Below the pieces are notes generated by a model. The model saw only the letters and a program-made list of their open reading frames with translations, did no database searches and was not told the origin of the DNA. A stretch of DNA of 64,000 bases, from positions 1 through 64,000 of the forward strand of contig JAETNR010000007.1 of the NCBI GenBank assembly GCA_021772055.1. Reading direction: 5' to 3'. Both the position numbers and the translations under genes were made by a program. The stretch is from Blautia sp. GTDB taxonomy: Bacteria > Bacillota > Clostridia > Lachnospirales > Lachnospiraceae. Positions within the stretch are counted from its first letter, which is position 1; each line of letters begins with the position of its first letter. Shown one piece after another: positions 26,199 through 30,297 of this stretch.

Positions 26199-28463
26199 AT
26201 GAAATTATACGATGGTGGTATTTACCTTGTAAATGACCATGATATCGTGGAGGAAGCCCATGCAGACCTTAATGTATCCAGGGCAGAGGCGGCTAAGAAC
26301 ACGATCGCATATGGAATTTTGGAAGCTCATAATACTTCCGGAAATATGGACAAGCTCCAGATTAAATTTGATAAACTTACATCTCATGATATTACTTTTG
26401 TAGGAATCATCCAGACGGCCCGTGCGTCGGGCCTGGAGAAATTTCCGGTGCCTTATGTGCTGACGAACTGCCATAACTCTCTCTGTGCAGTAGGCGGAAC
26501 CATCAATGAGGATGACCATGTTTTCGGCCTGACCTGTGCAAAAAAATACGGCGGCATTTATGTTCCGCCTCATCAGGCTGTGATTCACCAGTTTGCCCGC
26601 GAGATGCTCGCCGGAGGCGGAAAGATGATCCTTGGCTCAGACAGCCATACCCGTTATGGTGCCCTTGGCACGATGGCAATGGGTGAGGGCGGGCCGGAAC
26701 TGGTAAAACAGCTCCTTTCTCAGACCTACGATATCAATATGCCTGGCGTTGTGGCCATTTATCTGAAGGGCGAACCCCGTCCGGGTGTCGGACCGCAGGA
26801 TGTTGCGCTTGCCATTATCGGTGAGGTTTTTGCAAATGGTTATGTTAAGAACAAAGTTATGGAATTTGTAGGCCCTGGTGTTGCATCCTTAAGTGCTGAC
26901 TTCCGTATTGGCATTGATGTTATGACAACAGAAACTACCTGTTTGTCTTCCATCTGGCAGACAGACGATAAAATTGAAGAATTTTACGCTATCCATGGCA
27001 GAAGTGAGGATTTCAAAGCGCTGAAACCGGGTGCTGTGGCATATTACGACGGCTGTGTGGAAATTGACTTGGGTGAAATTAAGCCAATGATCGCTATGCC
27101 TTTCCATCCAAGCAACACCTATACCATTGATGAAGTAAATGCAAATTTGGATGATATTCTTGCAGATGTGGAGAAAAAGGCTCTGGTAAGCCTGGACGGC
27201 AAGATTCCCTATACCCTGAGGGACAAAGTGGTAGACGGAAAGCTTTATGTGGAACAGGGAATTATCGCAGGCTGTGCAGGCGGCGGTTTTGAAAATATCT
27301 GTGCTGCGGCAGATATCTTAAGGGGTGCAAGCATTGGTTCCGATGAATTTACCCTGAGTGTATACCCGGCAAGTACACCGATTTACATGGAACTTGCGAA
27401 AAACGGAGTTCTGGCGGATCTTCTTGCTACAGGTGCAGTTGTGAAAACCGCTTTCTGTGGACCGTGCTTCGGCGCAGGAGATACACCGGCAAACAATGCC
27501 TTCAGCATTCGCCATACAACCAGAAACTTCCCCAATCGTGAAGGTTCCAAAATCCAGAATGGACAGATTTCCTCCGTGGCTCTTATGGATGCACGTTCCA
27601 TTGCTGCTACAGCAGCAAATAAAGGCTTCCTGACCTCAGCAGAGGAATATGCAGGTTCCTATACGCATCAGAAATACTTCTTTGACAAAACGATTTATGA
27701 GAACCGTGTCTTTGACAGCAAGGGTGTGGCAGACCCAACTGTAGAGATTAAATTTGGGCCGAACATTAAGGATTGGCCGAAAATGGTTCCTCTGGCAGAG
27801 AATCTGGTGCTGAAGGTGGTTTCCGAGATCCACGATCCTGTTACTACTACAGATGAGCTGATCCCCTCCGGTGAAACCTCTTCCTATCGTTCCAATCCCC
27901 TTGGACTTGCAGAGTTTACCCTTTCCAGGAAGGATCCTGCTTATGTGGGCCGTGCTAAAGAAGTACAGAAAGCACAGCAGGCGATCCAGGATGGCAAATG
28001 CCCTCTGGAAGCTCTGGAGGAACTGAAGCCTGTGATGGAGATGATTCATACCAGGTTCCCGGATGCAGGAGAAGGAAATCTCGGTGTGGGAAGCACGATC
28101 TTTGCTGTAAAACCCGGCGATGGTTCTGCAAGGGAGCAGGCTGCATCCTGTCAGAAAGTTCTGGGCGGCTGGGCAAATATTGCCAATGAATATGCAACCA
28201 AGCGTTACCGTTCCAACCTGATCAACTGGGGAATGCTTCCGTTTTTGATCGAGGAGGGAGAACTTCCTTTCCACAATGATGATTATCTGTTTTTCCCGCA
28301 GATCCGTAGAGCTGTGGAGACAAAGGCGGAATCCATCACGGGCTATGTGGTAAAAGAGGATGGCTTAAAGGGGTTCTCGGTATCTTTGGGCGAGCTGACA
28401 GATGATGAGAGGGAGATTATCCTGAAGGGATGCCTGATCAACTATAATAATAAAAATATCTGA
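26199..28463 (+). CDS. aconitase-family hydratase (YbhJ-like)
   Basis: 754 residues from the ATG at 26199, 8 bases after GGAGG; an ATG at 26154 in the same frame has no ribosome binding site. Cytoplasmic Fe-S dehydratase of the aconitase superfamily. [21 protein letters not shown] is the family's substrate-binding block; the cluster ligands lie in [12 protein letters not shown] and [15 protein letters not shown]. The C-terminal part has the swivel domain with [20 protein letters not shown]. It differs from AcnA and LeuC and resembles the 'hydratase' group of unknown substrate; citrate/isocitrate is possible. Single gene with promoter and terminator. Confidence 0.85.
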
Positions 28464-28469
28464 CATGTG

Positions 28470-28513
28470 AGAGCAGCACGGGGTATGCAGACAGGCCCCG
28501 TGCTGCTCTTTTT
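28470..28513 (+). terminator. terminator of the hydratase gene
   Basis: Perfect 14-bp GC-rich inverted repeat (28470-28483 with 28496-28509), 12-base loop, then TTTTT. Confidence 0.95.
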
Positions 28514-28640
28514 GCTAAGATTCCATTTATTTTTAATAGAATAAATAATCAGAAAATAATAAAAAATTTATATAATTTGCTGTTTTGAGAAAAGTAAAAC
28601 AGATAAAAATAATTAATTTAAAAAATATTTCAAAAATGTA

Positions 28641-28669
28641 TTGACAAAACGGAGCCTGAGTGGTATGAT
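28641..28669 (+). promoter_or_regulatory. very strong promoter with UP element before an ORF-free region
   Basis: Consensus TTGACA (28641-28646), exactly 17 bases, TATGAT (28664-28669). The ~120 bases upstream are almost all A/T with phased A tracts, as in UP elements of stable-RNA promoters. No start codon with a ribosome binding site and no open frame of 60 codons follows. Confidence 0.85.
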
Positions 28670-28675
28670 AAACCC

Positions 28676-29441
28676 ATCAAAACAAAACAAGAGAAACATA
28701 AGAAAATCATTCAATTCATAGTATAAATGTTACTAGAAAGGAATGAGAAAGAAAGGATAAGGTGATTCCAGTGGGAAAGTAACCTGAACATCATCAATAT
28801 GAGTCAGTGATAGGAATCGTATTTCCTGCAAGAAAGACCTGATACAGGACGAATAGAAAGAACGATTTATCCGAAAACCATTTATAAACAAGATTCGGAA
28901 AACAGAGAAAAGTATCCAAGGTATAGAAACGATTTCTCATATTGAATAACTATCACGAACCTGATACAAAGACATTTAAGGATGTGTAAAGAAACATCGT
29001 TAAATAAATAGAACTTCTTATCTTAGAAAATCGTTCAGAAGAAGAGATCTGAAGTATTTCCGGGATAGATAAGCAGGATATTTTGAAATCCATATTGCAG
29101 TTTCAGAATATGAATTGAAGCTTTGCATCAGAAGAATATCTTCTTACAATAGATATTATTTTCAGAAAAAGAATTATAACCCGTGAAATTATAATTCAAA
29201 ATTCTATAAACTTTCTAAGTATATCGGATGATGGTGAAATCATATCGGTTATGAGCAGGAAATAATACGAGATATGTATATATATAGGATACAGAATAGA
29301 AAATAGAATAACGTTTATATTGGGATAGAAACCCAAAGAAGAAGTACCTATCAAAATAGTATAAAGAGGATTAAAAATTGAATAACGAAGATTTTTAGGA
29401 CGGTCATCATTTTTGAAAATAAGTAAAAAATGGTGACCGTC
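28676..29441 (+). ncRNA. candidate large structured noncoding RNA (~770 nt)
   Basis: No frame of 60 codons exists on either strand, and base composition is A-rich, unlike the flanking genes. Many local inverted repeats are visible: nested GTTACT/AGTAAC (28729, 28778) around GGAAT/ATTCC; CCGAA/TTCGG (28871, 28894); GATGT/ACATC (28981, 28994); AGAAGA/TCTTCT (29130, 29139); a perfect 9-bp GAATTATAA/TTATAATTC (29171, 29189); TTGGG/CCCAA (29320, 29332). The octamer CCTGATAC occurs twice (28838, 28960). A 16-bp hairpin at 29399-29441 may mark the 3' end, although it lacks a good T run. I do not recognise a known family. Confidence 0.6.
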
Positions 29442-29457
29442 ATTCTGTTGCAGGGCA

Positions 29458-29486
29458 TTGCCAGAAAAAGATTTTTAGGATATACT
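29458..29486 (+). promoter_or_regulatory. promoter of the pseudouridine synthase gene
   Basis: TTGCCA (29458-29463), 17-base spacer, TATACT (29481-29486), about 15 bases before the ribosome binding site. Confidence 0.6.
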
Positions 29487-29508
29487 CTCCCCATAAGGAG
29501 GTTTTTTT

Positions 29509-30297
29509 ATGCGCAATTTTAAGATAGAGGATTATATTTTGTATGAAGATAAAGAACTTCTGGTATGTCACAAGCCTGCGGGAATTGCAGTGCAGAGTGC
29601 CGGATTTGGGACAATGGATATGGAGAGTGCGCTGAAAAATTATCTGGCTGGGAAGGAATCGAAAGGAATACCCTATGTGGCAGTGGTCCACAGACTGGAT
29701 CAGCCTGTGGAGGGAGTTATTGTATTTGCAAAAACACCGGGTGCAGCAAAGGAATTAAGCCGTCAGTTTGCGAATGGAGAAGCTGATAAAAGATACTTTG
29801 CAGTAACTTCACAGCTTTCTTCGGAACTTTTAAAGAATAAGAAAGGCACAGGAATCACGGCAGGGGAGAATCCCAATGATCCGGTTTTCTGGCATATGCA
29901 GGAACAGAGCCTTACAGACTATTTAAAGAAGGATGGGAGAACCAATACTTCTTCTGTTGTGCCAAAAGGTACATTAGGGAGCAGGGAAGCCAGGCTTTCC
30001 TATCAGGTGCTGCAGAAACTGCGGGATGACCGGACCATAAGCGGAAAACGTTATCTGGTCTCTATCCGTCTGGACACAGGCAGGCATCATCAGATCCGGG
30101 TGCAGATGGCGCATGCAGGAATGCCGCTTTTGGGAGATCGGAAATACAATGGATCGGAAAAGGCAGATTTCCCTTTGGGACTTTGCTCCTGCATGCTGGC
30201 GTTTACGCATCCCGGAAACAGGAAAAAAATGAAATTTGAGATTATTCCCAAAGGGGAAGCATTTCAGGGATTTTTGATGAATAAGATGAATAATTAG
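29509..30297 (+). CDS. RluA family RNA pseudouridine synthase
   Basis: 262 residues after AAGGAGG. It converts uridine to pseudouridine in rRNA or tRNA. The catalytic Asp is in VVHRLDQPVEGVIVF, with LVCHKPAGIAVQ at the start and the RHHQIRVQMAHAGMPLLGD block at the C-terminal part. No S4 domain is present at the N-terminus. The target base cannot be told from sequence. It is the first gene after the ORF-free region. Confidence 0.9.
   Translation: MRNFKIEDYILYEDKELLVCHKPAGIAVQSAGFGTMDMESALKNYLAGKESKGIPYVAVVHRLDQPVEGVIVFAKTPGAAKELSRQFANGEADKRYFAVTSQLSSELLKNKKGTGITAGENPNDPVFWHMQEQSLTDYLKKDGRTNTSSVVPKGTLGSREARLSYQVLQKLRDDRTISGKRYLVSIRLDTGRHHQIRVQMAHAGMPLLGDRKYNGSEKADFPLGLCSCMLAFTHPGNRKKMKFEIIPKGEAFQGFLMNKMNN

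Follow-up and report, generated by a model that had tools for sequence, protein, structure and literature searches.

Does the gap between two protein genes in a 64,000-nucleotide stretch of Blautia DNA (hereafter the window, to which all coordinates refer) encode a large structured RNA, as an earlier note on this DNA had suggested, and if so, of what kind? The large structured RNA identified in the analysis described here represents a new family, so far found only in the family of Blautia (Lachnospiraceae), with an unusual, translation-linked design; a categorically new mechanism is possible but unproven. Few large structured RNAs are known from bacteria, and their function is mostly obscure. 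This one is chromosomal, occurs in dozens of genera of a gut family and lies outside Rfam.

Layout of the locus

The window has at 28675-29451 the layout of an RNA gene, i.e. a promoter, a structured stretch and a terminal hairpin:

28513..28640, plus strand: A+T-rich upstream tract (85.9% A+T), a possible UP element
28641..28669, plus strand: promoter TTGACA-17-TATGAT with TG before the -10 element (11/12 consensus bases)
28675..29451, plus strand: whole RNA as defined here, about 770 nt, putative start site near 28676

Both the almost pure A/T tract and the promoter are thus found where the earlier note had placed them. The promoter match alone proves little, since a scan of 3.5 kb returned 11 promoter-like sites against 7.9 expected. 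The pattern TTGAC-(17-20)-TAnnnT is present upstream in 68/68 collected sequences (the window and 67 relatives; loci cut by record ends or repeating a genome were not added). Of the 45 loci added later, 40 have a slightly looser one, two of the five misses being cut by contig ends. Shuffled upstream stretches carried the strict pattern in 3.6% and the looser one in 9.6% of cases (37 and 43 sequences with long enough flanks). Judged from its promoter, the RNA would be strongly transcribed and abundant. Among the collected relatives with a measured end, its length ranges from 476 nt (L167) to 1088 nt.

As claimed, there is no long frame: no plus-strand ORF of at least 30 aa begins between the putative start site and the terminal hairpin of the window, and the longest minus-strand ORF wholly inside the RNA region has 52 aa. 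Because the stretch is so A+T-rich, this absence is weak evidence by itself. Directly after the RNA, the rluA-type gene is preceded by a promoter-like site (TTGCCA-17-TATACT, 29458-29486, 10/12 matches), in keeping with the promoter of its own that had been ascribed to this gene.

A covarying pseudoknot core with a probable link to the 3' domain

The predicted RNA folds with a minimum free energy of -165.3, compared to a mean of -130.7 (s.d. 4.6) for 20 dinucleotide shuffles (z -7.5); without the 3' hairpin (28676-29375), z is -3.9. Over ten sequences (the window and nine relatives), z ranged from -2.6 to -7.9, the compact relatives L161, L163 and L167 being only modestly better than their shuffles (-2.6 to -3.2). 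The elements of the fold are as follows:

28794..28803, plus strand: P3 5' strand, pairs with 28936-28945; covariation
28807..28813, plus strand: P4 5' strand, pairs with 28950-28956; crosses P3
28815..28820, plus strand: P5 5' strand, pairs with about 28929-28934; covariation
28821..28829, plus strand: L1 5' strand, pairs with 29255-29263, about 430 nt away
28831..28836, plus strand: candidate L2 5' strand AGAAAG, pairs with 29211-29216; weak
28841..28845, plus strand: P6 5' strand GATAC, pairs with 28912-28916
28912..28916, plus strand: P6 3' strand GTATC, pairs with 28841-28845
28929..28934, plus strand: P5 3' strand (approximate), pairs with 28815-28820
28936..28945, plus strand: P3 3' strand, pairs with 28794-28803
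28950..28956, plus strand: P4 3' strand, pairs with 28807-28813
28977..29002, plus strand: P8 hairpin; 72% paired (wider helix) vs 56% slid, 157 double-change cells
29171..29197, plus strand: P10 hairpin with 9-bp stem; 74% paired vs 45% slid
29211..29216, plus strand: candidate L2 3' strand CTTTCT; weak
29255..29263, plus strand: L1 3' strand GCAGGAAAT, pairs with 28821-28829
29399..29441, plus strand: P12, terminal 16-bp hairpin; 91% paired vs 63% slid, 195 double-change cells

Covariation was assessed in two ways. An all-pairs G-test (65 sequences, 778 columns, a tree-based null with 12 null alignments, our own R-scape-style script) left out three of the 68 sequences, namely the truncated L158 and two near-identical rows; it returned six pairs at E<0.05, all within P3, P4, P5 or P12. 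The P3 pair 28801/28938 and the P4 pairs 28810/28953 and 28811/28952 lay above every null value. For each helix, we also compared the share of paired cells with that of the best of six slid registers, and with 300 between-sequence shuffles of the partners. P3 was paired in 99% of cells (45% slid) and P4 in 85% (57% slid). P3, P4, L1, P8, P9, P10 and P12 exceeded every one of the 300 partner shuffles, P9 being barely above its slid register (65% vs 58%). Double-sided changes were found in 16 of the 26 predicted core pairs. Since P3 and P4 cross, they make up an H-type pseudoknot, which is backed by compensatory changes. As to the samples, an early alignment comprised the window and 29 of 33 relatives' loci, L059, L060, L061 and L063 being out (the first three were restored to later sets, L063 was not), and one core alignment used 23 of 30 core sequences.

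L1, which connects the core to the 3' domain, is paired in 87% of cells compared to 50% for the best slid register, and its strands change in step across genera; none of its pairs passes the all-pairs test (best E 34). It was examined again in 27 of the 45 second-set loci, all outside any model, where the best helix between the two sites averaged 7.8 bp, compared to 5.8 bp (maximum 6.4) for between-locus shuffles and 4.9 bp for shuffled bases; in 5 of the 27 loci the best helix was one other than L1. A local UUUC/GAAA hairpin may be an alternative to L1, and both could form in turn. The neighboring candidate, L2, is paired in 90% of cells (67% slid, 4 double-change cells), which is no better than block-shuffled partners (mean 89%, maximum 90%).

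The perfect 9-bp stem and the 16-bp hairpin singled out in the earlier note correspond to P10 and P12, and both are conserved. P12 is a probable intrinsic terminator, with a U-tract that is poor in the window and better in several relatives. Our script recognized a terminal hairpin in 66/68 sequences with a motif list tuned beforehand on the collected 3' ends; of the two misses, L147 does show a hairpin among those 3' ends and L158 is at a contig end.

Altogether, the structured RNA is almost certainly real: the large structured RNA proposed from the window is borne out by the folding energy, by its presence in most Blautia genomes (see below) and by compensatory changes. What was found is a covariation-supported structure on what would be an independent transcript of more than 500 nt (476 nt in L167).

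Two short reading frames with probable ribosome entry sites

In its strict form, the description of the region as ORF-free and noncoding was not supported, as two very short ORFs, each preceded by a Shine-Dalgarno (SD) sequence, are conserved:

28750..28766, plus strand: extended SD stretch of ORF1, AGAAAGGATAAGGTGAT, predicted to form a duplex with the 16S 3' tail
28771..28782, plus strand: ORF1, GTG GGA AAG TAA (an in-frame GTG is also present at 28762)
29365..29369, plus strand: SD of ORF2, AGAGG (4-5 nt match in 60/65 scored sequences, about 30% in shuffles)
29378..29398, plus strand: ORF2, TTG AAT AAC GAA GAT TTT TAG, the stop codon abutting P12

The SD of ORF1 is strong. The computed duplex between the 16S 3' tail and the 22 nt that precede the ORF1 start has a median energy of -16.1 kcal/mol (65 sequences), compared to -6.8 kcal/mol for their own shuffles and -3.9 kcal/mol for random stretches of the same RNAs; the tail was located in three of the six related genomes searched and not in the draft genome of the window itself. 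ORF1 was scored in 109 sequences; 3 of the 68 were left out because they lack the ORF1 motif, as was one of the 45, whose contig ends within the locus. The start codon was TTG in 52, ATG in 35 and GTG in 22; CTG was allowed and never taken. The absence of C at this position over 15 changes has a chance of about 5% given base usage and is only suggestive.

The length of ORF1 varies widely between lineages. In Blautia-type loci it has 3 codons in 33/38 cases and 2-5 codons in 37/38, while in 36 of the 44 distant loci scored it has 24-34 codons. ORF1 is open into P3 in 60 of the 109 sequences, and in 57 of these 60 the same frame is kept relative to P3 (distances of 23, 26, 29 or 32 nt, identical modulo 3), the exceptions being L060, L198 and L206. 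Among the 49 ORF1s that stop early, 31 are in that frame (Fisher p 4e-5, uncorrected for ancestry). The 57 in-frame open ORF1s have 15-34 codons. In the 39 long-ORF loci of the second set, ORF1 spans the 5' strands of P3 and P4 in all 39, that of L1 in 37 and that of L2 in 33, strand positions being taken at fixed distances from P3. The ORF1 peptide itself varies freely and is unconserved outside the stretches fixed by RNA structure; by eye, its conserved residues coincide with RNA helices. Four ORF1 peptides were searched and none of the four matched Pfam or NCBIfam.

ORF2 is tied to the terminal hairpin. In 64/68 sequences it has 5-7 codons, starts with TTG (once GTG), follows an SD (GAGG or AAGG in most cases), and has its stop at a distance of -1 to 7 nt from the hairpin. 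The exceptions are L060 (12 codons according to the script), L163 (none), L158 (contig end) and L147, which by eye has a 6-codon ORF at its hairpin. By a like criterion, ORF2 was found in 64 of the 66 sequences with a scripted hairpin, compared to 12% when the upstream bases were shuffled (relatedness uncorrected). All three stop codons are used, with 21 inferred changes and never a sense codon, a pattern that is only suggestive (P 0.075 under an independent-site tree null). The SD duplex of ORF2 is mildly better than shuffled ones (-6.95 vs -5.1 kcal/mol), 12.5% of the sequences beating 95% of their shuffles. Of the 29 distant loci in which a hairpin was found, 19 have at that place an ORF with 3-9 codons and 10 yielded none; in several of the 19, the TTG of ORF2 has become TTA and an ATG is present three codons upstream of it. 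From these sequence features, translation of both mini-ORFs is likely.

Is the locus the remnant of a longer gene? The earlier note had named, as grounds for that view, homologs with an intact ORF. On the one hand, relatives do carry a longer ORF1; on the other hand, the lineages have the start site and the RNA core in common but not the peptide, and a decayed gene therefore fits poorly. A decayed long gene is also unlikely given that the longest plus-strand ORF in the 68 RNAs has 95 codons (L169; median 38.5), and in the second set 68 codons.

Distribution and genomic neighborhood

The homolog search that had been advised was carried out at several depths. A DNA search of 61 genomes matched the RNA in 37, including 34 of the 37 same-genus genomes (own genome included); the three same-genus genomes that gave no match are drafts, 81-92% complete. 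Three weak matches of 25-45 bases in other families are regarded as chance. Among the records matched by pattern are B. luti, B. schinkii, B. glucerasea and B. massiliensis. A covariance model that represents the 5' core and was built on Blautia matched 12/392 genomes of the order and 23/397 of the family; a broader model matched 68/397 sampled family genomes, in 56 of 334 genera, and 3/391 genomes of a class sample. The matches in the order (12) and in the class (3) are all inside the same family as Blautia. Of the 68 family carriers, 67 have a single match. The remaining genome (G491) has two divergent core matches, L206 (G491:C7:23855-24006) and L162 (G491:C12).

In Blautia, the RNA usually stands between acn and rluA, and AI-2E-type and BMP-type genes often come next, after rluA (names that we assign to the window ORFs from presumed similarity). 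This flanking is frequent, not universal: in tblastn searches, none of nine window proteins was found near the RNA in L161, L162, L163, L165 and L167 (the strands of other neighbors at these loci were called from ORF length alone and are unreliable). The RNA is therefore independent of its neighbors, and a cis-acting leader of rluA is rejected as the general case.

A mobile element was considered and set aside, as blastn of the window copy against 50,697 phage records and 72,556 plasmids gave no match. An exact pattern search in viral contigs also returned nothing, with a pattern that represents the relatives' consensus and does not fit the window's own copy. In one genome (G004), an inverted match to part of the RNA 3' end is present about 450 bases upstream of the RNA (L045:7554-7607, minus strand); it corresponds to query positions 735-787, i.e. 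the ORF2 region and half of the hairpin.

Relation to known RNAs

The earlier note could match the RNA to neither OLE, ROOL nor GOLLD, all three of which we take to be contained in Rfam 15. Indeed, none of them was matched at the Rfam gathering thresholds in the whole window or in 20 of the 25 distant loci L118-L142, and the window (1-64000) as a whole gave no Rfam match at these thresholds, no tRNA and no tmRNA. When 28450-29550 was searched at E up to 10, eight weak matches to other families were obtained, the best being Fusobacteriales-1 with 29.7 bits for a cut-off of 52.1. As far as the models reach, a known Rfam RNA is thus rejected, no Rfam family matching.

ROOL and GOLLD have a size range similar to this RNA, and we know of no ORF in OLE. 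tmRNA combines a reading frame with pseudoknots, and tmRNA and 6S RNA are structured housekeeping-type RNAs. Both exist as separate genes in 14 of the 14 carrier genomes tested, so that a replacement for either is rejected; the window has no RF00023 match and no ARAGORN call, and its genome carries the true tmRNA on a different contig.

Three known RNAs offer partial parallels. OLE, of the Bacillota, is likewise a large ornate RNA and is linked to translation by an SD/anti-SD mimic and by binding of ribosomal protein bS21 (PMC12054373), whereas the Blautia RNA has no sequence or structure match to it at Rfam thresholds. ROOL is predicted to contain several pseudoknots, a feature in common with the RNA studied here, and is described as encoded in phages and prophages, often near tRNA islands (PMC12286853). 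By contrast, the present RNA is on chromosomal contigs, occurs once in 67/68 carriers and has no tRNA in the window. RNAIII of S. aureus is free-standing, has a small ORF and acts on target SDs by C-rich motifs (PMC2837412), and a C-rich, anti-SD-like motif is present in distant members here; the present RNA differs in having no Rfam match, an unconserved peptide, a pseudoknotted core and, in Blautia, an ORF1 of about 3 codons. In titles and the opening lines of abstracts, we recognized no publication describing this RNA, supplementary tables aside, and an earlier listing of pieces of it is possible; the main text of PMC8040213 does not contain Blautia or Lachno.

A model for translation-coupled folding

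The reading that we favor, with a little under even confidence, is that of a stand-alone regulatory RNA of about 770 nt that is coupled to translation, ribosome occupancy and folding being in competition. Shared across lineages are the promoter, the strong ribosome entry site, the pseudoknot core, L1, the terminal hairpin and, mostly, ORF2. We favor a coupling of folding to ribosome occupancy because these RNA parts and the ribosome entry are shared while the peptide is not. In this model, the core (the H-type pseudoknot P3/P4) would be tied to the 3' domain by L1, perhaps also by L2, and ribosomes would have two entry sites, one at ORF1, which borders the pseudoknot on its 5' side, and one at ORF2, next to the terminal hairpin. 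With a 30S subunit or a ribosome on ORF1, the core could not form or would be disturbed; in many relatives, translation of ORF1 would necessarily take the ribosome across the 5' strands of P3 and P4 and, in most cases, that of L1. When initiation slows, the 3' domain would fold back onto the ORF1 region, giving rise to an active, compact form. The strongest form of the competition, translation through the core, would apply to relatives and not to the window, since ORF1 has only 3 codons in the latter. The computed results show the conservation, the promoter sequence, the covariation, the strong SD of ORF1 and the keeping of its frame; the competition, a sensing role and the abundance of the RNA are points that we infer. 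More tentatively still, the RNA could represent a new class of device, in which a mini-ORF for ribosome entry contains the 5' strands of the core and folding is decided by ribosome traffic; it would serve as a translation gauge, the Blautia version being a pure docking site.

Several other readings deserve attention. The size, the small ORF and the terminator would also suit a dual-function RNA resembling RNAIII, in which a small peptide is made from ORF1 (but no longer in Blautia) and the SDs of target mRNAs are paired in trans by the 3' domain. The anti-SD-like motif CCTCCG, which recalls the C-rich motifs of RNAIII (PMC2837412), was seen in 28 of the 45 distant loci (L190-L230) when the 650 nt that follow the core were considered, compared to 0.66 expected. 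However, it is found in only 1/68 first-set RNAs and is absent from the window, and it could equally pair with the RNA's own ORF1 SD (by eye, it mostly lies just after the L1 3' strand); moreover, the peptide varies freely and has no Pfam or NCBIfam match (4/4). We consider this reading rather unlikely. We see about the same low likelihood for a scaffold or ribozyme-like RNA in the style of OLE, ROOL and GOLLD, whose mini-ORFs would be incidental ribosome contacts or would protect its ends. This would agree with a large, pseudoknotted RNA with a near-consensus promoter and no known relative, and the SD/anti-SD mimic and bS21 binding of OLE provide a parallel (PMC12054373), but an SD of -16 kcal/mol and the frame-keeping of ORF1 look selected, not incidental, and there is no sign of multimers or catalysis here.

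The same SD, placed before an ORF1 of 2-5 codons in 37/38 Blautia-type loci, could instead hold 30S subunits or ribosomes on start-stop ORFs, making the RNA a ribosome decoy or hibernation factor. We think this improbable, since ORF1 is not of the start-stop kind in the distant loci with 24-34 codons (36/44) and the elaborate core would be left unexplained. Least probable of all is an mRNA whose product is the peptide, a small protein, and whose 3' UTR is long and structured: a 24-34 codon ORF1 kept in frame in many genera is what such an mRNA would have, but ORF1 shrinks to 15 codons in some lineages and to about 3 in Blautia while the promoter, the core and ORF2 stay, and the residues that are conserved coincide, by eye, with RNA helices.

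Returning to the translation-coupled regulatory RNA, its built-in ribosome link (a strong SD, and mini-ORFs that overlap pseudoknot strands in many relatives) makes the role of large ornate RNAs approachable by simple mutations. If the gauge proposal is true, an RNA-based gauge of translation would be widespread in a family whose members are dominant in the gut.

Note, as separate observations, that CTTTCT, the L2 3' strand, could pair either with the L2 5' strand (28831-28836) or with AGAAAG at 28750-28755, within the SD stretch of ORF1, and that CTTTCTAAG is common to this RNA region and the 16S 3' end. By eye, the Blautia SD and the L2 3' strand look able to pair, which would make a possible switch.
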